Assembly (NCBI RefSeq): GCF_000022205.1
Contig: NC_012030.1
Span: forward strand, 248,001-312,000
Source of the DNA: Halorubrum lacusprofundi ATCC 49239
Lineage (GTDB): Archaea; Halobacteriota; Halobacteria; Halobacteriales; Haloferacaceae
Direction: 5' to 3'
DNA: 64,000 nucleotides
Part shown: positions 3,320 to 16,348 of the stretch, piece after piece
Layout of the letters: the number at the start of each line of letters is the position of its first letter
Position numbering within the stretch: position 1 is the first letter of the stretch
The notes under the pieces: generated by a model
Seen by the model: the letters and a program-made list of their open reading frames with translations, nothing else
Told to the model about the DNA's origin: nothing
Database searches by the model: none
Program-made: the position numbers and the translations under genes

Positions 3320-3612
3320 CGCACACTGAAAACATGGGGTGTACCCCCTCCCGGAAACAATACACAGAGCCTCTGAATCGCGGGTTTACACTCGCAAGAT
3401 GGAGGTCCTTTTAAGACTCAGACCTCGGAAACCCCCGAGTCTGTTGGCAGCCACTACCAACACACGAATATCACTCCACAACGGCTCTGTTGAGATCCTC
3501 AGCTGCTGATAGCTTTTTCAGGCCGTGCTGAATAGAGCGCGCGCATCCATCAGTTGACTCTTTTTGTTTCTAACCGTCATATACAGATAGTTAGCCAATA
3601 TGATGTTAGTAT
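3320..3612. other. intergenic segment with IS-end remnant and hairpin
   Basis: No gene seen. At 3483-3499 there is a sequence almost identical (GGCTCTGTTGAGATCCT) to the terminal repeat of the IS5-like element at 36908, so a third, decayed element end lies here, cut off by the ISH3 insertion. At 3413-3443 an AGACTC/GAGTCT inverted repeat with an inner CTCGG/CCGAG stem could form a hairpin. Confidence 0.45.
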
Positions 3613-5011
3613 CAGTACCTCACAAAGCATCCTCGGCTAGCTGTTTCTGCGGCCTGAGTTCTGTGTCGAAGCGGTTGTACTGACGGTCTCGACGAGAGAA
3701 TTACGGACGGATCGACGGAGAGCTGTCGCTGTCGGCGGCGGTCAGCCGCCGACGCGACAGCGTCGCCACTCACTCCGCTGGCTTGCTCGGTCGGTGGTTA
3801 GCGGTGGAATCGGTCGTCAGGTGGCCGATTCGCGGGGACGGCCCGACGCACCGCGAGGGCCGTCCACGCAGCTCGTCGAATCATATTGACGAACTCCTTG
3901 TACGGCCACCACCAGAGGCGACGCCCGCCTCGGCGGGGCGTCGCCACATACTCGTAGTGAAGGTACCGCCAGACGTTCTGTAAGAGGAGACTCACCACCA
4001 CGTACAGCAGCCGTACCGTTGGATCTCGTGTTGTCGTTGTCGCTATCGCTTGCTCAAACAAGCGATAGCTTGACTCGATACCGAAGCGTTTCGAGTAGTG
4101 GTATCGAGCGTCCCGTGGTGAGTCGATGAACGGCGCGTCAGCGGCGTAGCCGTGACGCGCCACACCGTTCTCGTCATACTTCCCATTTAGGTACGTACAG
4201 TCGATGTAGACGGGAAAATCGACGGTCCAGCTGTGACCGTCGAGTTTCCCCGTCAGATCATGCTGAATGACGCGACTCCATCCTTCCGAGAGCTCTTGCT
4301 GAATCGCCTCACCCCACCGGATGATCGGGATCACGTACGCGTAATTGTGCGCCTGAAGCAGCGTGAGACACTTACTGTCGTAGAATCCGCGATCAAGGTA
4401 GACGGCCTTGACCCCGGCGTCAAGGCCGTCGAGGACACCGAAGAACTCAGCGAGGACACTACTTGCGGTATCGCCGTCTTTGAGACGGCGTACCGCCAGC
4501 GTGTAGCGTTTGTTCTTCACACGCGCGTAGAGTGTGGCATAGGCGTGGAACGCAGTGGTTCCACGCTTCGCTACCGAGTGATAGAGGCCGTCTGTGTCGT
4601 CTTCGTCACCGTAGTAGGGCCGCAGGTGGAGGTCTGCGCAGACCTCCACCTGTTCGGGGAGCAATTCATCGAGATCCTTTCGCAGGAGCGTGTTAGCGAC
4701 TCGTTCGAGCCGTTCCGGCTCGAACTTCGTCCGAAGATGGTAGAGGACCGTGTTCCCAGCGGGTGAGTTCTGGCTCGACGCACAGAGCGTAGAGACAGAG
4801 GTCCCGTCGGCGCAAGCGCCGACGAGGACCTCATAGATGTCTTCAGCAGTGATTTCAGCGTTATTGGCTAACGAGAGCGAAACTTCCTCGTCAAGGCGGT
4901 TGACGAGAAAGTTAAGAAGCTGGTCCTCGTGGATCTCACCGTCTGCTTGTTTGGTTTTAGACACACCTTCAGCAAGCAGACGTTCTAACTAAGCGGCTTT
5001 GTGAAGTACTG
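3613..5011 (-). mobile_element. ISH3-family insertion sequence, copy 1
   Basis: About 1.4 kb, a typical ISH3 length. The ends are imperfect inverted repeats: CAGTACCTCACAAAGC at the left and the complement of CAGTACTTCACAAAGC at the right. It carries one transposase gene. The five bases on each side (AGTAT and ATGTT) do not match, so there is no target duplication, which points to later rearrangement. The right end sits inside an Orc1/Cdc6 gene whose 5' half is absent on the other side. An almost identical copy in opposite orientation starts at 62907. Confidence 0.85.
3798..4964 (-). CDS. ISH3-family DDE transposase
   Basis: 388 residues, GTG start. The C-terminal half shows the catalytic DDE region: VYLDRGFYDSKCL carries the second Asp, and the KRFGIESSYRLFEQA block is the Y-R-E type signature with the catalytic Glu found in IS4/ISH3 transposases. 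The N-terminal part is the helical DNA-binding region. The enzyme cuts the element ends and joins them to new targets. It is full length and apparently intact, and the copy at 62954 encodes the same protein over the visible part. Confidence 0.88.
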   Translation of the reverse strand: MSKTKQADGEIHEDQLLNFLVNRLDEEVSLSLANNAEITAEDIYEVLVGACADGTSVSTLCASSQNSPAGNTVLYHLRTKFEPERLERVANTLLRKDLDELLPEQVEVCADLHLRPYYGDEDDTDGLYHSVAKRGTTAFHAYATLYARVKNKRYTLAVRRLKDGDTASSVLAEFFGVLDGLDAGVKAVYLDRGFYDSKCLTLLQAHNYAYVIPIIRWGEAIQQELSEGWSRVIQHDLTGKLDGHSWTVDFPVYIDCTYLNGKYDENGVARHGYAADAPFIDSPRDARYHYSKRFGIESSYRLFEQAIATTTTRDPTVRLLYVVVSLLLQNVWRYLHYEYVATPRRGGRRLWWWPYKEFVNMIRRAAWTALAVRRAVPANRPPDDRFHR

Positions 5012-5806
5012 ATGTTCGATGAGATCAACAATGTTGACGGTACGCTCATATTGATACTGGATGAAGTCGACCACATCAAGGACGATAGTCTGCTGTATAA
5101 GCTATCCCGAGCTCACGAAGATGGAGATATAATAGACACGTTCTTTGGAGTAGTTGGCATCTCGAACGATCTTCGATATCGTGAGAACTTGAGTTCGAAG
5201 GTCCAGTCTAGTTTGTGTGAAAAAGTAGTCTCCTTCAGTGCATACGATGCAGATGAGCTGGTTGAGGTCCTATCCCAGCGCACACAAGTAGCGTTTCACG
5301 AAGATGCAGTCGGCCAGGATGTAATTTCACTGTGCGCTGCATATGGGGCGCGTAACTCCGGGGACGCTCGGAAAGCACTCGATCTACTTCTTGAGAGCGG
5401 TGATATTGCTCGGTCCAGCGACAGTGATACAGTGGAAATAGAACACGTAGAACAAGCGAAAGATCGACTAGAGACAGATCAACTTCTAGAGGGCGTCAAG
5501 AATTATTCGACTCACGGCAAGCTGACCCTTTTGGCGCTGATCACTCTGGCAGAAGACAAAAAAACGCCTTGTAGGTCGCGTTCGATCCACAAGCGGTATG
5601 TGAAAATCTGTGAGAAAGAAGTCTGTGAACCAGTCTCCAATCGTGCTGTTCGAGACTACCTTAGTGAACTAGAGGTTCTGGGGATCACGTCTTCAGAGAC
5701 ATTCAATGATGGCAAAGATGGTGGCAAGTACAAGAAACATCAATTAAGAAGGAGTGTTTCGGAGATCCAAGGCGCGTTGACGGAATCGCTGACTGCAGAT
5801 TTGTAG
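5012..5806 (+). pseudogene. Orc1/Cdc6 replication initiator, 5' truncated by ISH3 (orcA)
   Basis: 265 codons encode the C-terminal part of an Orc1/Cdc6 AAA+ initiator: Walker B LILILDEVDHI, sensor 1 (GVVGISNDLRY), the NSGDARKALDLL sensor-2 helix and a C-terminal winged helix (SRSIHKRYVKICEK...). The Walker A half is missing because the ISH3 end lies exactly at the reading-frame start. The product should not bind ATP properly. It directly precedes ORB array A, four bases from its stop, so it was presumably the initiator for that array. Either the origin is dead or another initiator outside the window serves it. Confidence 0.88.
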
Positions 5807-5809
5807 TAC

Positions 5810-6299
5810 ACCCCACTATTTCCGCTGTTAGCCAGACACATTCATCGATACTGATTATACTACCCCACTATTTCCGCTGTTAGAGTATTATATCGCGAGC
5901 AGTGATCAGACTACCCCACTATTTCCGCTGTTAGCCAGACATATTCTCGAATAGCGTTACCCCATCAGTTCCGCTGTTAGAGTGTAATAACTCGTGGGTG
6001 TACCATACTCACCCCACCAGTTCCGCTGTTAGCTTGATACATTCTCGTGGGTCATACCCCCACTAGTTCCGCTGTTAGATAGACAGTGTATACGGTGTCG
6101 AGATGGCTGTCGGTTTCCCAGATCTCGATTCAACGATCATCGTCAGGTTGCAAAGTAAACGCGAGTATATCACGGTCCTTTGCTACACGACAAGAAGAAC
6201 AGTGAGGCAGACCCACCCCACTAGTTCCGCTGTTAGTTCTGAACCGTGCAAGCAGCTGTCGACTATCCACCTCACCCACCCCACCAGTTCCGCTGTTAG
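5810..6299 (+). repeat. ORB array A (eight direct copies, one inverted at 6458)
   Basis: Eight 22-bp copies of a motif beginning ACCCCAC and ending TTCCGCTGTTAG start at 5810, 5862, 5913, 5959, 6011, 6057, 6215 and 6278. The early copies are spaced 46-52 bp, about five DNA turns. One inverted copy (TAACAGCGG...GTGGGGT) lies at 6458-6478. Inverted repeats around an AT-rich stretch next to an orc gene are the standard haloarchaeal origin design, with Orc1/Cdc6 bound at each ORB. The sequence differs from arrays B and C, in line with initiator-specific ORBs. Confidence 0.85.
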
Positions 6300-6457
6300 A
6301 CTAGCAAACAACTAGCGGTCGGTCGGCGTATTGCCGTGTTAATGTATATCTATTGAAGATAGATATATGTAGTTATGGTGGAAACGAGTCCGTAGGACGT
6401 TAACACCATACGACAAAGCACCCCCTGACATGGGGGTGGTGTAGTCGTATACGATTT
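6300..6457. other. probable unwinding region of origin A
   Basis: AT-rich stretch between the direct and inverted copies of ORB A. It contains a near-perfect palindrome at 6344-6367 (TATATCTAT, five-base loop, ATAGATATA) and no gene. Its position between oppositely oriented ORBs suggests the DNA-unwinding element of origin A. Whether the origin still fires is doubtful, because its adjacent initiator gene is truncated. Confidence 0.55.
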
Positions 6458-6523
6458 TAACAGCGGAAACAGTGGGGTGGGGGGGTACGACTAAGACGCG
6501 TCTGCAATAGGTATAGAACAGAC

Positions 6524-7510
6524 ACACCCCTCCCGCAGAGTGGAACTGAGATATGCTGACGTACCTCTTGTCCATCGCGACCTGCCACCGGAATCTCGAA
6601 GTCGACTTACCTTCTCGACTCCAAACAGACACACCCCTCCCGCAGGGTGGAGAGTCGATCAAGTGTGTATGGGTGAGCTGATTACGATGATGCACTATAT
6701 AAACAAACCAAAAATAGAGTATATAGGAAAGCAAAAACGCAAGACGCACCAGCATTACTTGCACTCATATAGAAAGGCATAACAAACACGTTACTACTAG
6801 CTAGTCTAGAACCAACTAGTTAGTTAGTTAGTACAGAAAGAGAACACAGGTACTAACAAGCTACACAGCTGGTCTACAGACGTCTTCTTCTCTAGCGACC
6901 CCCCGACCGCTTCGGCAAGTTCCACCCTGCGGGAGGGGTGTGTCTCCCCCGATCACGAGATCATTCGCCGTGCAGACCCCGGTCGACCAAACGCCGGCGT
7001 ATTGAGCCAGTGAGTCCATAGACACTCTCGATGCCGACCGGCAACTAAGTTTTCCACCCTGCGTGAGGGGTCCTCTACGCCACAGTGGGACGGTCACCTC
7101 GTTCCACTCTGCGGAAGGGGTGTCTCCCCGACATATCGGATTGGCCGAATAGTTCCACCCTGCGGGAGGGGTGTCTGTTTGTAATATATCATAATACAGA
7201 ATACTGTGTTCCACCCTGCGCTTGGGGTATTTGCCCAACATATCGGATAGATCAAATGGTTCCACCCTGCGGGAGGGGTGTCCCTATATGTCAGAACCTA
7301 TGAAAAATTCCACCCTGCGGGAGGGGTGTCCCCAACAGACCAAGATAGCTGGTCAGTTCCACTCTGCGGGAGGGGTGTCCTCGACAGATCAGAACAATAG
7401 GTCAGTTCCACCCTGCGGGAGGGGTGTCTAAATCGACTTTCAGCGAATGAAATCACAACGCTCGAACTCCATAAACCGATAATATAGATGTTTCCACCCT
7501 GCGGGTGGTG
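6524..7510 (+). repeat. ORB array B (two inverted and ten direct copies)
   Basis: Motif TTCCACCCTGCGGGAGGGGT followed by GT. Inverted copies at 6524-6545 and 6631-6651; direct copies starting at 6920, 7052, 7102, 7153, 7209, 7260, 7308, 7357, 7406 and a degenerate one at 7492. From 7102 on the spacing is 48-56 bp, again near five helical turns, so bound initiators would line up on one DNA face. The last copy abuts the orcB promoter. The array is the probable binding site of the orcB product. Confidence 0.9.
6652..6919. other. probable unwinding region of origin B
   Basis: The DNA between inverted and direct ORB B copies is AT-rich from about 6685 to 6860, with TATAAACAAACC, AAAAATAG and a short TTAG tandem run (AACTAGTTAGTTAGTTAG). 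No convincing gene is present. Its placement between opposed ORBs next to orcB makes it the likely unwinding site of the one intact origin in this part of the window. Confidence 0.6.
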
Positions 7511-7523
7511 GAAAAGGCTTAAG
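7511..7523 (+). promoter_or_regulatory. orcB promoter (BRE/TATA), next to an ORB
   Basis: GAAAAGGCTTAAG: a purine-rich BRE-like stretch and a TATA-like CTTAAG centred about 27 nt before the ATG at 7548. This is the spacing of leaderless haloarchaeal transcripts and supports that start. The degenerate ORB copy at 7492-7510 touches it, so initiator binding could repress its own gene. Confidence 0.5.
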
Positions 7524-7547
7524 TCCAACGTGTTTCATGACTTGGAT

Positions 7548-8777
7548 ATGAATCAAGACGGTGACGGTGGCAGCGATAATGGCGGCCGGGATATTTTCGC
7601 TACCAATTCGGACATCTTCGAAAATCGAGATCTTCTAAAAGTTGGTTATGTTCCTGGTCTTGACCAAATTGTTGGCCGAGAAGAGCAAATACAGAGTGTA
7701 GGCCAATCGATCGGATCTGCTACTGTTGGCGACTCTCCCGACACACTACTAATCTATGGGAAGACAGGATGCGGCAAGTCTCTCGTGGCTCGTGCAGTTA
7801 CTCGAGAGGCAAAGCAGAGAGCTGCAGAGAACGGCTACAACTTCGAATACTCATATATCGACTGCTCCGAGTATCGAACGGAGACTAAAGCGAGTAGGCA
7901 AATCGCTCGCGAGATCAAGAGGTCGATCGGTGACCCCGATCTTAATATCCCCCGGGCAGGGCTATCGGCTTCGGATTATCGGGATATGGTTTGGGAGATG
8001 ATGTTCGATTACGACATTGACTCGTTTGTCGTGATCCTGGACGAGATCGACATGCTGAAAGATGAAAACCTGATTCGTAGCCTCTCCCGAGCCGAAGAAA
8101 GCGGTAAAACGGATGGATACGTAAGCCTGATTGGAATTAGCAACAAGCTCAATTACCGAGAACAACTCGACCCACGGACTGATTCCAGCTTCCGAGATCA
8201 AGAGATCGTATTCGATCCGTACGATGCGAATCGCCTACGAGATATTCTGTACAGCAGAGAAGAAGCCTTCGTCGACGGAGCTCTCTCGGAGAGCGTCATT
8301 CCGAAGATAGCTGCACTGGCTGGGCGAGATCATGGCGATGCTCGAAAAGCAGTAGATACGCTATATGAGGCTGGACGTTCTGCAGAAGCAAAAAATGCTG
8401 ATCAGGTGAATGAGAGACACGTCGATGAAGCAATAGAGGAGGCAGAAATAAAGCGGATGCAAAAACTGGTTTCTGGTCACCCTACACATGGAAGGTACTT
8501 GCTAAGGTCACTGGCACTTCTGACAAAAAACCACGAGCAGGAGAAGAATCAATTCAAGACCTCCGAAATATATGACTTCTACAAGCAAATCTGCAAGAAG
8601 GAAGGATCTGACCCTCTCTCACTTAATCGTGCCCGAAGACATCTGAAAGAACAGGCTTTCTTGGAATTGACTGAGATAGAACACGCCTCCGAGGGTCGTG
8701 AAGGTGCTTTCTTACTTCATCGACTGATGGCTGAACCCGAAATCATGATCGAGGGCCTCGATAGAGCCAATCACTAA
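7548..8777 (+). CDS. Orc1/Cdc6 replication initiator (orcB)
   Basis: 409 residues and apparently intact. AAA+ ATPase with Walker A GKTGCGKS (residues 71-78), Walker B FVVILDEID, sensor 1 SLIGISNKLNY, sensor-2 helix HGDARKAVDTL and a C-terminal winged-helix domain (FKTSEIYDFYKQICKKE) for ORB binding. Archaeal Orc1/Cdc6 marks origins and loads MCM. The frame is open from 7488, but the first 60 bases lie in the last ORB and the TATA box, so the ATG at 7548 is chosen. It lies directly after ORB array B, its probable cognate, and ends head-on against the gene at 8778 with no gap. Confidence 0.92.
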   Translation: MNQDGDGGSDNGGRDIFATNSDIFENRDLLKVGYVPGLDQIVGREEQIQSVGQSIGSATVGDSPDTLLIYGKTGCGKSLVARAVTREAKQRAAENGYNFEYSYIDCSEYRTETKASRQIAREIKRSIGDPDLNIPRAGLSASDYRDMVWEMMFDYDIDSFVVILDEIDMLKDENLIRSLSRAEESGKTDGYVSLIGISNKLNYREQLDPRTDSSFRDQEIVFDPYDANRLRDILYSREEAFVDGALSESVIPKIAALAGRDHGDARKAVDTLYEAGRSAEAKNADQVNERHVDEAIEEAEIKRMQKLVSGHPTHGRYLLRSLALLTKNHEQEKNQFKTSEIYDFYKQICKKEGSDPLSLNRARRHLKEQAFLELTEIEHASEGREGAFLLHRLMAEPEIMIEGLDRANH

Positions 8778-10013
8778 CTATTCTTCTTGGTCTGGTGGAC
8801 TGTATGCCTCGTTAGTTTCCATGTACTCGCGCCACTCTACTGCCAACTCCCTCGTTAAGTTATCATGGACGGTGGCCAGTACTTTATCGTGAGTTGATTC
8901 TGTCAGCTGGTCTGCTGAGTCGATCCCGACTTGCTCACAGACTTTCTGATGCAGGGTTCGTGAAACATTCTCGTTCAGATCGAACGGGACCAGTGACGTG
9001 GCAGTGGAATTTGCACGTTCGAACACTGCCGTTGCCAAGTTAATCGGAACGTACGACTCTCCCTGTGATAGGATCGTAGTGTCCGGGGCCATCGGGTAGT
9101 CTTGCAGCTCCTCGGCGAACAGGGACGCGTGCTCGACGACCTCCAAGGGAGTCTCCTTATGTTCAATACTTTCGCGGTTAGTGACTTTCTTGCCCCGCTC
9201 TTCGAGCATCCTAATCATCTCTGGAGGTAGGTAACTACCATCCGGGTACTGGCAGACATACCTATCCTCACCGGCCTCAAGGAATCGACAGCGAGTGATC
9301 CCGAAGGGCGTTGTGTAGTCGACCAAGAGTGTGTGTCCCTGCTCAGTTTCTTTTTCGGTCAACTCAATGCCTTCCTCGACAACCAACGTATCGCCCTCAA
9401 ATCCTATTCCTTCAGTGTCGATCTCACGAATCTGCTCCTTTGCATTTGCTTGGAAATTCGCAATCATACGGCCTCCGTTCTGTTCTGATCCTGAGAGCAT
9501 AACATCTACCCACAACGACTCGTATTCGCGATCGGGAAGAATGGCTCTAGCAGCAAGAAACCCAGTGAGCGTATCGAAGACGCTTATTGTATCGCGGAGC
9601 AGGAAGTGAATTAGTGGCAAATCTTCGTATTCATCCTCAAGCTGCCGAAGTCTCTCAAGAATCTCTTTCGCCTCGACGAGTCTGAACATCCACTGGGTAA
9701 TCGACTCCAAATCGCGTATACTGTACCCGAACGAATAGACTGCATGTTGAACCTCGACTGGTAGTTCGTTTGGGTCCTCACCCTTGTAGCTGCACTCTTG
9801 ACGATCTTGGTCGGTTACTCTGAATCTGTACCTGTTGATGGTCTCGCCGTCGACGTATTTTACACTAACTTCTGGGTCACCCTGACTCCACTCCTGGCAC
9901 TTCACTTGGATGTATGTCCTTGCGTCTTCGTCAGCCATCTGCGGCACAACGTAGTTCTCTCCCCAGCCGAAATCGAATACTGGGACCGCGTACCGGTTTT
10001 CACTGGGCTTCAT
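8778..10013 (-). CDS. hypothetical protein, third gene of the par unit
   Basis: 411 residues, acidic, soluble, without a recognisable family. The centre is helical (DLESITQWMFRLVEAKEILERLRQLEDEYEDLP); a C-terminal part has ATVHDNLTRELAVEWREYMETNEAY. It is 155 bp downstream of the parB-like gene on the same strand and may belong to the same transcript. Its place between an initiator gene and parA/parB suggests a plasmid maintenance role, which is inference from position only. Confidence 0.65.
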   Translation of the reverse strand: MKPSENRYAVPVFDFGWGENYVVPQMADEDARTYIQVKCQEWSQGDPEVSVKYVDGETINRYRFRVTDQDRQECSYKGEDPNELPVEVQHAVYSFGYSIRDLESITQWMFRLVEAKEILERLRQLEDEYEDLPLIHFLLRDTISVFDTLTGFLAARAILPDREYESLWVDVMLSGSEQNGGRMIANFQANAKEQIREIDTEGIGFEGDTLVVEEGIELTEKETEQGHTLLVDYTTPFGITRCRFLEAGEDRYVCQYPDGSYLPPEMIRMLEERGKKVTNRESIEHKETPLEVVEHASLFAEELQDYPMAPDTTILSQGESYVPINLATAVFERANSTATSLVPFDLNENVSRTLHQKVCEQVGIDSADQLTESTHDKVLATVHDNLTRELAVEWREYMETNEAYSPPDQEE

Positions 10014-10168
10014 TGTCGGCTCCTTTTGTTTCGGTCATGCTGTTGTTACGTAATGCACCAACATATGGCTTGGTGCGAACGGACAATTCTATCCTATCCA
10101 AACATATGAACAGCAACTTTGGGAGCCTGTTCACAGGGGGTGAGTAACCAGTCTGAGGTGTCTTTGCC

Positions 10169-10699
10169 TTACTCTTCTTCGCTGGTCAATCCCAGTTCTT
10201 CACGCAGAAGATCATCGTCACGGAGGACCGTACGAAAGAGAGCAGTATAGAAATCCCAGTGTTTGTCGATCTCTTCCCCGTGTTCTCTTCTGTACTTGTA
10301 CTCAAGCTCCTTGTATAGTGTGTGAATCTCTTCCTTCACTTCAGGAGGGACGAATACATTGATATTGTCATAGAGATCTGTAATTGCCCCTACCTCCTTG
10401 TCTGGGTTGGGATATTCACGCTCCATAACCCCGCCGACCTCTTGGACGTTATCTTGTTCTTGTGGCTCTGACGAACCATCATCATCACCACCTGGCGGTT
10501 CTGATGTTGTAGACGCTTCTTGCGTTTCTAACGTTTCTGGCGGTTCTGATGATTCCACCTCGGCAGATGTTTCTAGTACCTCCTCGTCTTCAGGGTCTCC
10601 GTCGTCACCAGAGATGCCAAACTGCTCGGCTAATTCTGCAGTTTTATCCATCTCATCACGGAGACCCCCTCCGTCTCCGTCACCGTCTCCATCTCCCAT
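10169..10699 (-). CDS. ParB-like centromere-binding partner of ParA (candidate)
   Basis: 176 residues, starting one base after the parA stop, so translated together. The first two thirds are an acidic, low-complexity tail (GDGDGDGG; SEPPETLETQEASTTSEPP). The last 80 residues look folded: NINVFVPPEVKEEIHTLYKELEYKYRREHG. A small acidic protein directly downstream of parA is the usual place of the site-binding partner. No classical ParB domain is visible, so the role is inferred. The stretch coding ETLETQEA is built from 9-bp units like those upstream of parA. Confidence 0.6.
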   Translation of the reverse strand: MGDGDGDGDGGGLRDEMDKTAELAEQFGISGDDGDPEDEEVLETSAEVESSEPPETLETQEASTTSEPPGGDDDGSSEPQEQDNVQEVGGVMEREYPNPDKEVGAITDLYDNINVFVPPEVKEEIHTLYKELEYKYRREHGEEIDKHWDFYTALFRTVLRDDDLLREELGLTSEEE

Positions 10700-10700
10700 T

Positions 10701-11588
10701 CTAATTCACTCCTGCTTCGGCTCGAATATCTTCGGGTGTCATGTCTCTAGCAGCACTGATGTCGACTCCATACGATGGAGGGTTGGTCCCATCGAGAACC
10801 AGCTGAACCACTTCATCGTAGACTGGCAGTTGATCGTTCCGTAGGGATTCTTCGTAATTGTAGATCGAATTCTGACCCCACTTTGCACGGTCGAACGATG
10901 CTCTGTCATCGATCTTGACGAGTGGGCTGGTATTCTCCTCACACCAGGATATTACTTCTTTGTTCTCCGTTGTTAGCTTGTTCGAGATGTATGTCAGTGG
11001 GTATGCGAGGTAGTTAACCTCGAAGTCGTGCATCATACCGAGGACTTGCAGAGCTTGCCATTGATCTCGCACCGAGAAGATCGTCTCCGATTCGGGTTTC
11101 ATTGGGACTACGACATTCCCACTCACAGTGATCGCATTCTTCGTGTACGCGGAGAGATCCGGTGGGCAGTCGCAGACAATATAGTGGTAATCTTTACTCA
11201 GTTGTTCAAGGGCCTTTCCTAGACGCTTTTCGGAAGCCGAAGCTGTATCTAAAGGCGTCTTGTTACCTTTGAATGTGGTGTTTGCGGGGATGAAATCGAA
11301 TTCTTCGTGATCCGTCAGCACGACGTCGTCGATCTGACTCCACTTCTCAACATCCATTAGTACTTCATCGAGGGAGAGCCTATCGGCGTCCTCGAAGACC
11401 TCACGTTTGCCTACATTCGCAGTCAATGATCCCTGTGGATCGAGATCGATCAACAGAACCTCGAGATTCCGTGCGTTGAGTCCTCCTGAAATCATTAGCG
11501 AATTGAATGTTTTGCCTGTCCCCCCTTTTTGGAATGAAACTGCGATTGTTTCTGGGCTTGTTTCAACCGCGCTCGTTTCTGATGCCAT
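10701..11588 (-). CDS. parA: ParA/Soj-family partition ATPase
   Basis: 295 residues with the deviant Walker A KGGTGKT (residues 21-27), Walker A' (VLLIDLDPQGSLT) and Walker B YHYIVCDCPPDLS, the hallmarks of ParA-type plasmid partition ATPases. ParA coats the nucleoid and, with a site-binding partner, moves plasmid copies apart. The N-terminus before the P-loop is only about 20 residues, so it lacks the DNA-binding extension of type Ia proteins; a separate regulator or the ParB-like protein would have to control the operon. Its upstream region holds four blocks of phased 9-bp repeats. Confidence 0.9.
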   Translation of the reverse strand: MASETSAVETSPETIAVSFQKGGTGKTFNSLMISGGLNARNLEVLLIDLDPQGSLTANVGKREVFEDADRLSLDEVLMDVEKWSQIDDVVLTDHEEFDFIPANTTFKGNKTPLDTASASEKRLGKALEQLSKDYHYIVCDCPPDLSAYTKNAITVSGNVVVPMKPESETIFSVRDQWQALQVLGMMHDFEVNYLAYPLTYISNKLTTENKEVISWCEENTSPLVKIDDRASFDRAKWGQNSIYNYEESLRNDQLPVYDEVVQLVLDGTNPPSYGVDISAARDMTPEDIRAEAGVN

Positions 11589-11637
11589 GTAGGTTAGAGA
11601 TGTTTCTTACGTAATAAGGCTTAGTCAGACGTTAAAC

Positions 11638-12140
11638 GTTCTGAACATTAGAAACGTTAGAAACTGATGAAAATGGGGTGTTGGAAGCGTCAGAAACGTT
11701 AGAAACTGAGGGGTTGGGAATATTAGAAACATTCTGAACGTTGGTCGAGTGGCATCTTGATTAGTGATTGAATCACGCGCACATGGCTGTATGAAGTGCT
11801 AAAATCTATTCCATCAGTCTGGATTGATCAACCCGAAATACGTTGAGCATATTTCTACCGTTGGAAGCATTAGAAATAGTAGAGCTATTAGAAGTAATGA
11901 GAGATTCAAACACGATCTTCAGCCGTTCCATTGTGTATGTTATTGATCCTCATAACATCAGAACTATTGGAGCTGTTGAATACGTTAGAAACAATGGGAA
12001 CGATAGAATCTATAGAAATCACCTAAGACAACCCTGCCCCGATCTGCTCCTTTATCATTGTAAGAACTGTTGGCTATCTCTCCAATGGCTCTACTATAGA
12101 GAACGTTAGAAATATTGGAGATATTTCGAACAATAGAGCT
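11638..12140. repeat. phased 9-bp degenerate repeats, probable partition site
   Basis: Directly upstream of parA, units of the form RTTAGAAAC follow each other head to tail with exact 9-bp phase in four blocks: about 11638-11748 (several runs), 11842-11904 (seven units), 11957-12019 (seven units) and 12105-12140 (four units). Examples are ATTAGAAAC-GTTAGAAAC at 11647 and GTTGGAAGC-ATTAGAAAT at 11860. Purine-rich cores recur on one strand. Iterated short sites beside parA are typical plasmid centromeres and also serve for operon autoregulation. No reading frame accounts for the pattern. Confidence 0.75.
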
Positions 12141-12199
12141 CACACCAATCCGAGAGGTTCAAGATCATGACTCAGTCGGTCACCGGCTATATCTATTAT

Positions 12200-13635
12200 C
12201 GGTACTTCCCGAACGCTGCTTTGTGAACTGTGCTGAGTCACGCTCCATTGGATCAAACGCTGCGTGGTTACTCTGTGAAGAATGGAATAGGTTTCACAGA
12301 TCAACAGAACCGAGCGGAGAGAACTCATGTAGCCGTCAGAGACGAGTGCTGTAGCTCAGTAGACGCTTACCTGAGGCCGCGGGCTGGCTCAGCCCGCGGC
12401 CGCTGCGTACGCTTCCGGCACACCGACGCCGTTCATTTTGATCTCCCAACTCCGCTCAAGTTCCTCCTCTAATGCGTGTCTGATCCAGTCAGAGAAGGTC
12501 TTGAACGTGAACTCTTCGGGTAGGTCGCGCCCGCCCCGCCGTGGGCGGGCGACGACCGCCCACCGAAGCACGAGCCAGAGGTTCTCCAGCAAGAACCCAA
12601 CCAAGACGAACCCAAAGCGGACGATTGAATCCTGAGTCGTCGTTACCACCCGTGCTTGGCGGAATACGCGATAGCTGGTCTCAATCGCTGAGCGTTTCCG
12701 ATAGAGTTGTTCGACCCGCTTCGGCGTGCGATCAGCCAGATCGCACGCCACATACCCTCTAACGACCTCTCCGCTCTTGCCACGATCTCCGGCTTGGTAG
12801 GAGACAGCGACTGCAAGTGGGAATTTCAGTTCCCGCTTGCAGTCTTTGTACATCCGATAGGTCGTCATGTACGAACAATGCGTGTCTAGCTTCTTCTTCA
12901 TGCGTTTACCCTTCTTTTGGACGGGAACGACAGTCGCAGCGATGTCATGTGACCGACGTAGGATACGTTCGTTGTAGAAGCCGCGATCAGCCAACAAAAG
13001 GTCTATATCGAAGGGATAGGCCTCGACGCGGTCGAGGACACGCTCGACCGCGTCAGCCTCACTCTCATCACTCCGCACGTACGTCATAGCCAGCGTCACC
13101 GGCTTCCCGTTTGAAACGAGGTATGCTGAGCAGTAGCGGTGACACGTTGTTGTACCGTCTTTAGCAGCCATCCGACAGAGTTCGCCGCTCTCATCGGCGT
13201 ACGTCCCGTGGTAGGGGTTATCGACGAAATCAATGGAGACTATCCTCGACCGGTCGGGGTCGAGGATCGTCATTGCCATCTCCTTCAGTAGGTCGTTAGC
13301 AATCCGCTCTAGCCACTCTCGGTTGAGAGTATGGAGCCAGTCCATGACAGTATCGTCACAGGGAGCGTTGTCGTTGTCTTTGCAGGTTTCCCAGACAGAA
13401 GTCTGGTTGACTGCTGCAAGGGTAACGACGGCCCAGATCTCGCCGGAATCGAGGGGCGAGCCCTCGATTCCCGGCAGCGGGAGCTGTTCAACGATATCTT
13501 CCGCTAGTTCTTTCACGTCTGTGGCTGAAAGATGCCCGTCTGGCTGAGGAATTGTGAACACATTCACTCAACCAGACATCTTCTTGATGACAGTTACGTT
13601 TCAGCTACAGCTCTCAAACCGGTTGGGAAGTACCG
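12200..13635 (-). mobile_element. second ISH3-family insertion sequence (different subtype)
   Basis: About 1.44 kb bounded by inverted repeats CGGTACTTCCCGAAC (left) and the complement of CGGTACTTCCCAACC (right, ending 13635). It carries one transposase. The flanking bases (ATTAT and AATGT) do not match, so no target duplication is evident. It sits next to the last block of 9-bp repeats and may have cut the repeat field short. The ends and the protein differ clearly from the element at 3613. Confidence 0.75.
12389..13567 (-). CDS. ISH3-family DDE transposase (second subtype)
   Basis: 392 residues from a GTG start. DDE features: SIDFVDNPYHG with the first Asp, LLLADRGFYNERIL with the second, and the signature YRKRSAIETSYRVFRQA with the catalytic Glu. 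A hydrophobic patch and the RPRRGGRD motif near the C-terminus parallel those of the transposase at 3798, showing common family membership despite low overall similarity. It appears complete, with no frameshift. Confidence 0.87.
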   Translation of the reverse strand: MNVFTIPQPDGHLSATDVKELAEDIVEQLPLPGIEGSPLDSGEIWAVVTLAAVNQTSVWETCKDNDNAPCDDTVMDWLHTLNREWLERIANDLLKEMAMTILDPDRSRIVSIDFVDNPYHGTYADESGELCRMAAKDGTTTCHRYCSAYLVSNGKPVTLAMTYVRSDESEADAVERVLDRVEAYPFDIDLLLADRGFYNERILRRSHDIAATVVPVQKKGKRMKKKLDTHCSYMTTYRMYKDCKRELKFPLAVAVSYQAGDRGKSGEVVRGYVACDLADRTPKRVEQLYRKRSAIETSYRVFRQARVVTTTQDSIVRFGFVLVGFLLENLWLVLRWAVVARPRRGGRDLPEEFTFKTFSDWIRHALEEELERSWEIKMNGVGVPEAYAAAAG

Positions 13636-13662
13636 AATGTTCGGAGCAGTGTTCGCCGCCGA

Positions 13663-14271
13663 ATGGAAGAGCTGTTAGATGATCTGAGGTTGCTACAACA
13701 CCGACAGCCCGATTTGTTTGAAGACGCCGTACTGATGTTAGACGGTGTTGAGTGGGCCGATTCCGAGACAGTCTACAGTAATGACGAGACTGCTGATTCC
13801 ATCGCCCCGATAGCCGATGGGGAACCACTCGATCCTCGCACCGATATCGAAGAACATGGGCAATCGGGTGGTTGTTCGTGGAGTTATACTGGTGCAGGTT
13901 CCCAACAGTTAGCCCTCGCGATCCTTGCACACGCGACTGATCCTGGTGTAGCCCGACGTCGGGCACAGGGATTCGCCGCTGTGTATATACAATCGTTAGA
14001 CGACGGATGGAAATTGACAGCTGAGGAAGTCCAGAAATGGGTTCGGATTGTGGAAAACGAAGATAGGGATCTCAACCTGGAAAAATTGGATATGTCCCCT
14101 TACGAGCGAAAGCTCAATCAGGTACACGACATCTTCGAAAGCGAGATCGAGGCGTCTGATCTCACAGAAGACGAAAGAGAAAGGCTGGAATCGGCAGTTA
14201 GTGAGTTTGTTGAGTCACGCTTCCCCGAGGAACCTCTTGGCAGTCAAGACACATCCGATAGCACTGAATAA
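13663..14271 (+). CDS. DUF6166-like haloarchaeal protein
   Basis: 202 residues. The central segment GGCSWSYTGAGSQQLALAILAHATDPGVARR matches the pattern (G-x-W-x-Y-x-G-x-G-P/S-x-Q-L-A-L-A-I-L) that I associate with DUF6166, widespread on haloarchaeal plasmids. The C-terminal 60 residues are helical and acidic. The biochemical role of the family is not known to me. It begins 28 bp after the ISH3 right end, so its promoter may have been changed by that insertion. Confidence 0.6.
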   Translation: MEELLDDLRLLQHRQPDLFEDAVLMLDGVEWADSETVYSNDETADSIAPIADGEPLDPRTDIEEHGQSGGCSWSYTGAGSQQLALAILAHATDPGVARRRAQGFAAVYIQSLDDGWKLTAEEVQKWVRIVENEDRDLNLEKLDMSPYERKLNQVHDIFESEIEASDLTEDERERLESAVSEFVESRFPEEPLGSQDTSDSTE

Positions 14272-14308
14272 TTGACATCCTCCCCGCGCTAAAACGCGAG
14301 GATTCCTC
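14272..14308. mobile_element. end remnant of an IS200/IS605 (TnpB-type) element
   Basis: The sequence GACATCCTCCCCGCG, then CTAAAACGCGAGGATTCC, reproduces the hairpin end that follows tnpB genes in haloarchaeal IS200/IS605-family elements. It directly follows the stop of the DUF6166-like gene. No tnpB or tnpA coding sequence is found nearby, so only the end remains. Confidence 0.5.
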
Positions 14309-14339
14309 CATTTAGTTAATGCTTCTCGCTCGTTGGCTG

Positions 14340-14540
14340 CTGATCTCCGTTCGTCGACTGCCGAACAGCTCCTCCCACTCTATGAGAACCGTTCGGCGAT
14401 CGCTGTTTTCCGGTCGCTTGACGCCGTTTCCCAATCGTTGGTTGACTATTTCCGTTCGTCGACTGTCGAACGGTCTTTCCCATCCTATGAGACCCGTTCG
14501 ATGATCGTCGCTTCCCGGTCACCGGTCGACGTTCCCTGGT
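14340..14540. repeat. imperfect tandem duplication of about 105 bp
   Basis: The sequence from about 14347 (TCCGTTCGTCGACTG...CTATGAGAACCGTTCG) recurs with changes at about 14452. Further GTCACCGGTCGAC-like short repeats follow at 14515-14555. Both strands are open through the repeat, but composition and repetition argue against a normal protein. It lies just outside the TnpB-type end and may be the decayed interior of that element. Confidence 0.5.
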
Positions 14541-14691
14541 CACCGGTCGACTCTTCCCGAACGCCAACTGCCAATCTCCGGTTGCCGACTGCCGAGTTAC
14601 ATTCCCTCGGCGTTCTGGAGGGCCCATATAGGACTTTTCTCCCGATGAGAGGGTTTGAGCCACTTTTCAGGGGCTAATGGTACGTTCAATT

Positions 14692-14710
14692 TGCCCTTCA
14701 GTAGAGGGCA
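14692..14710 (-). terminator. short hairpin downstream of the integrase gene
   Basis: TGCCCT, a seven-base loop and AGGGCA form a six-pair stem 76 bp beyond the integrase stop. Archaeal termination mainly needs T-rich runs and none is strong here, so this may only be a chance hairpin or part of an attachment region. Confidence 0.25.
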
Positions 14711-14785
14711 GAATAACCGAAGCAGACAATATATCAGCATATAGTTTACAGCCAGTCTAAAACGTCGAAATCAGCAATAACAGAG

Positions 14786-16030
14786 TCAGACGTTGCCGAA
14801 TACAGCTTCCAATTCTTCGCCAAAAACCTCTCTCCGGTACTTGCGACGTTCTGATTCGGAGATGTAATTCGAGACAATAATCTCTGCACTCGAGGACCCC
14901 TGATCAGCAGCGACCTCCTCCAACTCCTCAGCCAGTTCGGTCACCGCATTCTTATACATCGTGTACCAGAGTCTCCTTCCCATCTTAGCCGTCGGTGTCT
15001 CACCGTCAACAGTCACATCAACGGCTGTAGCGAGTCTCTTGAACCGATTATTGATCGTCTCCCCGGTTCGATGCCCACTCGACGATTGACTCGAGGGGAA
15101 CAGGTAACCGTTCCATCCAGGACCTTCGAGATCTGCAATGCGGTCTTGAACAGCGTCGACACCGAACATCAGGTTGACGGTGCCCGGTCCATTCTTGCGC
15201 TCCTCGAACTCAATGTAGTCGTCGCTGTAACTACCGTCATCATTCTCAGTATCGAAGACGAACTGGGAGACGTGCAGCGAAGCCACCTCATCAGGCCGTA
15301 GACCCCACGCACCAAGGCCCAGTACCAGCAGCTGGTCAGCGGGGTTATCTGCTTCGTGGAAGATTCGACGCATTCCCTCCCTGTCGACTGTCGGGTTGTC
15401 GGGCTTGCTCCTTTCCCAATCATATTGGTTGGCTACGGGGTTGATGGGGTTGTATCGAGCTCTCCTGAAGTTAGCAAGGTACTCATAGAACTGCCGAATC
15501 TCACTGTAGTACTTGAGTTTTGTCTCGTCATTGGCTAACTCTTGGTTGAATACATCGAAGACAGCGAGACAGCGGTCGATCTCTTCTGGGCGATCGTACT
15601 CATCGTCGAGGTGTCTTTCGAGATCGGAATGACCGTGCAGCGATTCATAGATGCGTGCAAACTGGGCGAGTCGAGATCGACGGCTGCGGATGGTTCTCTC
15701 AGCAAGATTCCCCCTGCTTCTGCGGCCTTCGAGGTACTTCTCGAACACGCTGATCATGCTTTCAGAGCTGATCCCCCAGTCGTATGCGTCACCCTCGTCT
15801 TCGCCCACTCCGACAACGTCGGTGTAAAACTCAGTGAGGGTGAGTTCGTGGTTCTTCCGGAGCGTATCGGCAAGCCCTGAAAAGCCGTTGTCGAGCAGCC
15901 ATTCGTATGGTGGAGATTCTTTCCTGGGTTCGAGACCGTCAGCAACCATCTTCGGGGCGATGGTATCGTTATAAAACGCCACCAATTCGTCGAGTGACTT
16001 GCGGTTCCAACTATACCGATATCCGCTCAT
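14786..16030 (-). CDS. tyrosine recombinase / integrase (XerC/D-like)
   Basis: 414 residues. The N-terminal SAM-like domain (residues about 85-200) is followed by the catalytic domain: LGAWGLRPDEVASLHVSQF carries the first catalytic Arg, AKMGRRLWYTMYKNAV the second conserved block, and IVSNYISES the likely nucleophilic Tyr. These enzymes integrate or excise elements, or resolve plasmid multimers, through a phosphotyrosine intermediate. It stands alone beside restriction-modification debris and a TnpB-type end. No tRNA or att repeat is seen in the window, so the host element is not defined. Confidence 0.85.
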   Translation of the reverse strand: MSGYRYSWNRKSLDELVAFYNDTIAPKMVADGLEPRKESPPYEWLLDNGFSGLADTLRKNHELTLTEFYTDVVGVGEDEGDAYDWGISSESMISVFEKYLEGRRSRGNLAERTIRSRRSRLAQFARIYESLHGHSDLERHLDDEYDRPEEIDRCLAVFDVFNQELANDETKLKYYSEIRQFYEYLANFRRARYNPINPVANQYDWERSKPDNPTVDREGMRRIFHEADNPADQLLVLGLGAWGLRPDEVASLHVSQFVFDTENDDGSYSDDYIEFEERKNGPGTVNLMFGVDAVQDRIADLEGPGWNGYLFPSSQSSSGHRTGETINNRFKRLATAVDVTVDGETPTAKMGRRLWYTMYKNAVTELAEELEEVAADQGSSSAEIIVSNYISESERRKYRREVFGEELEAVFGNV

Positions 16031-16348
16031 AGAAGGCCTCTCGCTGTGATCAAGGGTAATTCTAAGACACTCATATTCTGTACAGAGAGACTATCGTACT
16101 ATAATATAACACTTTTCCCTAATCGCTTGTCTCTCTGGGACAAGCGAACTATGGCAATATCGAGATATAACGGCGCTATACGCATAAACCATAATTCGCT
16201 ATATCAAAGTCGGGAAGCTGAAGACAGCAATAAGTCGGAGGATGGATTTTGACAAACCATCAGGCTCGTAAGGTGTTCCTCACAGGCTATTGCGCTCGAA
16301 TTCAAGAAAACGCCTTCTCAGACGAATTCATACCAGAATGAACACCAT

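Follow-up and report, generated by a model that had tools for sequence, protein, structure and literature searches.

The form of archaeal plasmid centromeres is listed as an open question of the field (PMC5120986), and a par locus of Halorubrum lacusprofundi raises it directly: what are the phased 9-bp repeats upstream of its parA gene, and which protein reads them? We analyzed this locus in a stretch of 64 kb, called the window here and used for all coordinates, which covers positions 248001-312000 of a 431,338-bp replicon (genome of 3.69 Mb, three contigs). The initial annotation read the repeats as an undescribed type of archaeal partition site, with the product of the gene at 10169 as its binder. 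Comparative evidence from sequence now favors that reading, since the operon is conserved, locus-specific fields lie beside many homologs, the C-terminal domain of the candidate binding protein correlates with the repeat unit, and the unit is confined to the locus. The reading was incomplete in two respects, as it overlooked a second array inside the gene of the putative centromere-binding protein (CBP) and the presence of the system in known haloviruses and on plasmid pR1SE. We propose, with a probability of about 0.84, that the upstream field and the intragenic array together constitute a partition centromere (parS), to which the product of the small gene at 10169-10699 binds.

Results

The replicon, parA and its promoter

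The gene at 10701..11588 (minus strand) encodes a ParA-type ATPase of 295 aa, matching Pfam AAA_31 from residue 13 (E=1.3e-32) and NCBIfam ParA_partition (5.9e-21). The protein has a deviant Walker A motif (KGGTGKT) about 20 residues from its start and is without an N-terminal HTH extension. On its upstream side the field is bounded by an ISH3-family transposase gene. Window positions 3608-16227 (12.6 kb, replication and partition genes included) are 99.95% identical to the Halorubrum lacusprofundi plasmid pR1SE, which is transferred in vesicles (PMC10818511); if the 431-kb replicon and pR1SE were in one cell, competition for one shared partition site would be expected. An orc1/cdc6 gene lies near the par locus at 7488-8777, and immediately before it the 24-nt repeat TTCCACCCTGCGGGAGGGGTGT occurs ten times (6918-7513, mostly at a spacing of about 50 bp), likely as the replication origin. 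A 5'-truncated orc1/cdc6 (profile positions 120-366) is found at 5012-5806, beside a transposase-like ORF (3798-4964), and is followed by seven copies of a 37-nt repeat family, CCGCTGTTAG (5809-6313).

The parA promoter region carries a GTCTGAC box (11624..11630, minus) and then a TATA-like element, TTATTA (11612..11617, minus), which lies 29 nt from the parA ATG, a position compatible with leaderless transcription. The box is conserved: 63 of 90 loci match it at 7/7 positions, versus 0.4% in shuffles, mostly 40-60 bp before parA, and a TATA-like TTWT element comes after it. For halovirus phiH1, the mapped parA transcript T7 begins 5 nt ahead of the ATG, with TTTATC at about -29 and the GTCTGAC box at about -41 to -35, counted from the mapped start; the field thus sits upstream of a near-leaderless promoter. 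Because the box persists in loci with differing 9-bp units, its ligand is probably a host factor or ParA and not the locus-specific CBP.

A phased 9-bp field upstream of parA

Within 11590-12200, lag 9 is the top autocorrelation lag (match rate 0.38, z=6.84), a value reached by none of 2000 dinucleotide shuffles, in which the highest z at any lag was 4.3. With harmonics at lags 18 (z=3.8), 27 (z=3.6) and 36 (z=3.1), the peak at 9 and its multiples that had been predicted to exceed shuffled sequence was found. Lags 3 and 6 are at background level, so the field is not coding-like.

Earlier, four blocks of RTTAGAAAC variants had been described in this field; the strict 9-bp phase inside blocks stands, and the count becomes six, plus one pair. 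All are on the plus strand. Block 1 (11638..11664; autocorrelation and unit matching) holds three units, GTTCTGAAC ATTAGAAAC GTTAGAAAC, as do block 2 (11680..11706; unit matching and PWM scan), GTTGGAAGC GTCAGAAAC GTTAGAAAC, and block 3 (11713..11739; unit matching), GTTGGGAAT ATTAGAAAC ATTCTGAAC. Blocks 4 (11842..11904) and 5 (11957..12019), both recovered by unit matching and the PWM scan, each contain seven phased units in 63 bp and start exactly where the initial annotation had put them, and block 6 (12096..12140; unit matching) contains five. The weaker pair GTTAGAGAT, GTTTCTTAC (11593..11610) lies between the promoter and the parA start. The six blocks sit in differing 9-bp phases, and their units are often degenerate, with 6-8 of 9 matches and a few weaker ones within runs. 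By simple arithmetic, seven units are 63 bp or six turns of B-DNA, which is true of two blocks. Dyad symmetry of the unit (TATC-A-GATA, GTTA-G-AAAC, GGTA-N-TACC) was considered and is suggestive; it was given no weight because the PWMs were trained on the two strands together and, for class B, from a palindromic seed.

The extent assigned to the field, 11638-12140, holds as far as it goes, but a further phased run at 10497-10577 (minus), inside the downstream gene, had been overlooked. When the PWM was trained without the window, phased runs of at least three units in the 64 kb were confined to the field and the CBP gene; a PWM including the window's field gave four such runs, versus 0.01 per shuffled window. 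A search of all 3.69 Mb of the genome for pairs of neighboring units in phase, with up to two mismatches allowed, gave exactly three matches, two in the upstream field (11647 and 11689) and one in the CBP gene (10524, minus), and a control pattern gave none.

The field flanks the conserved parA promoter and type Ib CBPs also act as repressors (PMC5016525), both of which could be taken to mean that the units are operators only, through which the CBP or another regulator represses parA, with no role as a centromere. However, six blocks over about 500 bp, reaching 550 bp upstream and recurring 1 kb downstream in a gene, are more than repression needs, and the array of halovirus ChaoS9 lies entirely within ORFs. 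We therefore consider a purely regulatory role unlikely.

The small protein downstream of parA

The putative CBP (10169..10699, minus; 176 aa) is encoded directly downstream of parA after a gap of 1 bp; its counterpart in pR1SE has the accession WP_012660222. Profile searches of Pfam, NCBIfam and PDB sequences yielded no relatives, and the ParB/Spo0J domain by which type Ia is recognized was absent in Pfam and NCBIfam; the protein matches PHROG_26668, a family of unknown function. In the AlphaFold model of the full protein, residues 30-110 mostly have pLDDT <50 and form a disordered middle linker, and confident helices at 119-140 and 148-159 come after an extended stretch, NINVFVPPEV, an arrangement known from RHH proteins. 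This putative DNA-binding domain (10220..10369, minus; strand NINVFVPP, long helix, second helix) has a mean pLDDT of 76.7 when modeled alone. Foldseek gave no significant PDB match for it and HMM/profile searches likewise found none, so that we infer the RHH-like fold from the predicted order of these elements. An arginine lies within residues 4-35 in 29 of 30 cluster CBPs, as expected for a ParA-activating tail, though this is no proof of one. Loci that are closer in their C-terminal domains also have more similar units (Mantel, 0/2000 and 2/2000), which fits this domain reading the unit, though shared ancestry contributes.

Conservation of the layout across loci

Relatives of the CBP were found in 23 of 97 close genomes, in 21 genome loci and on named plasmids from about ten genera, and a profile search detected homologs in 102 of the order's 392 genomes. 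The parA gene is directly upstream in 90 of 99 loci (window counted), most pairs overlapping by 4 bp (ATGA), and these 90 loci fall into 30 clusters at 80% ParA identity. Six loci (L049, L052, L134, L144, L149 and L153) have CBP homologs with no parA detected in the stretch examined. Over the upstream 450 bp of 29 non-redundant clusters, the mean z is 2.77, 2.01, 1.66 and 1.29 at lags 9, 18, 27 and 36, and lags that are not multiples of 9 stay within 0.65, except lag 1 at -1.6. A lag-9 excess also seen in downstream and far-upstream control DNA was set aside, as it accompanies coding-type lags (3 and its multiples) once split by region. By these measures, about 21 of the 30 clusters have z>3 upstream or in the linker and about nine are without a clear array. 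The array is present on named plasmids of Natrinema, Halosimplex, Haloarcula, Haladaptatus, Haloplanus and Natronomonas.

What is conserved is the layout and not the sequence. The unit GTTAGAAAC is shared by the window, Natrinema, Halosimplex, Haloarcula and Haladaptatus; TCAGATACA by Natronomonas and several Halorubrum; a GGTATTACC-like unit by Haloplanus, Halobellus and Halorientalis; and other loci have GAAACGAAC and further variants. Describing each locus by its single best 9-mer word proved too noisy, and PWMs and whole-array matching were therefore used. Orientation also varies, RTTAGAAAC being on the strand opposite to parA in the window and largely on the same strand in Natrinema and Halosimplex. 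Judged from sequence, many related archaeal plasmids and viruses appear to share one layout with different sites, which looks like a widespread, undescribed handle for DNA segregation.

This distribution bears on whether the units could instead be replication-origin iterons of the nearby Orc1/Cdc6 initiator, which we regard as extremely unlikely. The gene at 7488-8777 is close, and orc1 also adjoins the locus in N. pellirubrum and Haladaptatus, but the repeats flanking orc1 in the window belong to the 24-nt and 37-nt families, neither of which is shared with the field. Moreover, the 9-bp array is kept in loci without a nearby orc1, and its unit tracks the CBP.

An array inside the CBP gene

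The overlooked run (10497..10577, minus) consists of 9-bp units within the linker-coding part of the CBP ORF. On the gene strand, from 10550 down, it reads ATCAGAACC GCCAGAAAC GTTAGAAAC GCAAGAAGC GTCTACAAC ATCAGAACC, with a further unit, ACTAGAAAC, at 10569-10577. The unit of the field repeats here in frame, and since nine bp are three codons the array can pass through the coding sequence of the linker. The protein consequently carries tripeptide repeats, ETL/ETQ in the window and SDT, TET or KTS in relatives, written in codons such as TTA GAA ACG (window, class A), TCA GAT ACA for SDT (class C), ACT GAA ACG for TET (L035 and ChaoS9) and TCA RAG ACA (L126). The 5' end of parA also carries units in L035 (MTETAETAETIET) and in ChaoS9.

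Acidic low-complexity linkers are common in haloarchaea, and the lag-9 signal of the linker is partly a property of the protein. The tripeptides might then have been selected only as a flexible linker, the upstream repeats being unrelated or products of slippage, and tests by own locus and by codon were needed for this reason. Linker DNA fits the upstream 300 bp of its own locus above those of other loci (0/20,000 permutations as good). The DNA coding for the C-terminal domain has no such own-locus match (8108/20,000), and a mid-parA stretch gives a small own-locus signal (42/20,000), so that some locus-wide composition effect remains. Compared with synonymous sequences drawn from local codon usage, the linker has an excess with a mean z of 2.78, versus 0.59 for the C-terminal domain and 1.11 for mid-parA; single-PWM counts with synonymous resampling are individually weak in several class A loci. 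The linker DNA thus fits the noncoding field of its own locus beyond synonymous expectation, and the units, degenerate yet phased, lie in blocks 1 kb apart and are specific genome-wide. Selection for the linker alone is therefore very unlikely. A trade-off between upstream and linker signals was also sought, and the negative correlation was not significant (rho -0.26, p 0.23).

Discussion

Comparison with known partition systems

By analogy, the locus would work like a type Ib ParABS system, with an iterated parS that the CBP is predicted to bind and ParA to move. Four of the five type Ib features that we examined are found here (ParA without HTH, a downstream co-operonic CBP, an unstructured CBP N-terminus and the architecture of an upstream repeat centromere). 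For the fifth, the RHH fold, the helix order and strand-like segment of the CBP fit, with no significant Foldseek/HMM match. Close parallels exist with pSM19035 delta/omega, a type Ib system that likewise combines a small ParA without HTH, a small CBP and contiguous short sites. Its centromere consists of contiguous 7-bp sites, in 7-10 direct or inverted repeats over promoters, on which omega dimers wind as a left-handed spiral, and at least four contiguous sites are required for ParA activation (PMC9499535). In the window, by contrast, the system is archaeal, the period is 9 and not 7 bp, the unit differs and varies by locus, the CBP linker is much longer and the array enters the CBP ORF; no sequence relation was detected, and the pSM19035 site WATCACW is not enriched in the window.

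In TP228 ParF-ParG-parH and pCXC100 ParA-ParB, the CBP has a disordered N-terminal tail and a C-terminal RHH, and the iterated centromere is upstream (PMC7308502, PMC5016525). The parH site is made of tetramer boxes with AT-rich spacers and that of pCXC100 of direct repeats only, both unlike the window, and no intragenic array is reported for either in the open-licence papers examined. Among archaeal systems, SegAB pairs a ParA-like SegA with an RHH SegB encoded by an overlapping downstream gene, and some SegB sites lie within segAB (PMC12284271, PMC5120986). SegB, by contrast, has as its site a palindrome of 13 bp, TCTAGASTCTAGA, whose copies are mostly dispersed over the chromosome; this palindrome is not enriched in the window (7 matches versus 14.6 expected) and does not occur in 11590-12140, even with three mismatches. 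The archaeal plasmid partition system of pNOB8, AspA-ParB-ParA, has a CBP that makes a left-handed helix on DNA (PMC5120986), but it comprises three genes and its AspA, a winged HTH protein, spreads from a 23-bp palindrome, whereas the window has two genes and a pre-written array. Finally, in SCP2 ParA-ParT-parS the CBP gene contains parS within its coding sequence (PMC12260392), a precedent for an intragenic centromere. That parS, however, is one inverted repeat of 18 bp belonging to a clamp-type relative of ParB and not a codon-phased tandem array; of the latter we found no description in the open-licence literature.

A model for partition

We propose that dimers of the CBP occupy successive 9-bp units next to one another, in the upstream blocks as well as in the intragenic block. 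The coated blocks would offer N-terminal segments of the CBP to nucleoid-bound ParA and stimulate its ATPase, and the plasmid would be relayed apart. The CBP may also co-repress the parA promoter, which lies between the blocks and the gene. A 9-bp step corresponds to about -51 degrees, and this value, together with the analogy to omega of pSM19035, makes the superhelical filament suggested by the initial annotation plausible in the form of a left-handed spiral of CBP. We further favor, if by a modest measure, the broader view of a widespread archaeal family in which the period is fixed at nine bp because this is three codons, and in which part of the centromere lies within the ORF of its own binder, sometimes also within that of ParA. 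Linker and site would then evolve as one text, and a private unit for each replicon could set incompatibility.

This candidate centromere would serve a large family of plasmids, secondary replicons and viruses in haloarchaea, pR1SE and the classic model virus phiH1 among them, and it comes with a testable site and a candidate binding protein that until now was annotated as hypothetical. The unit sequence could allow the compatibility of replicons to be predicted. In addition, the codon-phased array within the gene of its presumed binder appears to be under selection in two roles, as a protein linker and as a DNA site, which is unusual for a single sequence.

Partition genes of haloviruses

The parA-CBP pair is also present in the myohaloviruses phiCh1 (ORF46/47), phiH1 (PhiH1_265/260/255) and ChaoS9. 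Their CBPs are annotated as uncharacterized or HNH, and in the halovirus literature that we examined only ParA is named as a partition protein. In contrast to the window, the upstream field is weak or absent in these viruses and the array is mainly in the CBP gene. ChaoS9 is without an upstream field; its CBP gene holds an extended array of ACTGAAACG (z9=10.9), which is also found at the parA 5' end. The L-region of phiH1 is a 12-kb plasmid (PMC6210493). In this virus (L160, 2863-3698), PhiH1_260 and PhiH1_255 resemble tandem CBP paralogs, and PhiH1_255, annotated as an HNH endonuclease, looks like a fusion of an HNH domain with a CBP C-terminal domain.
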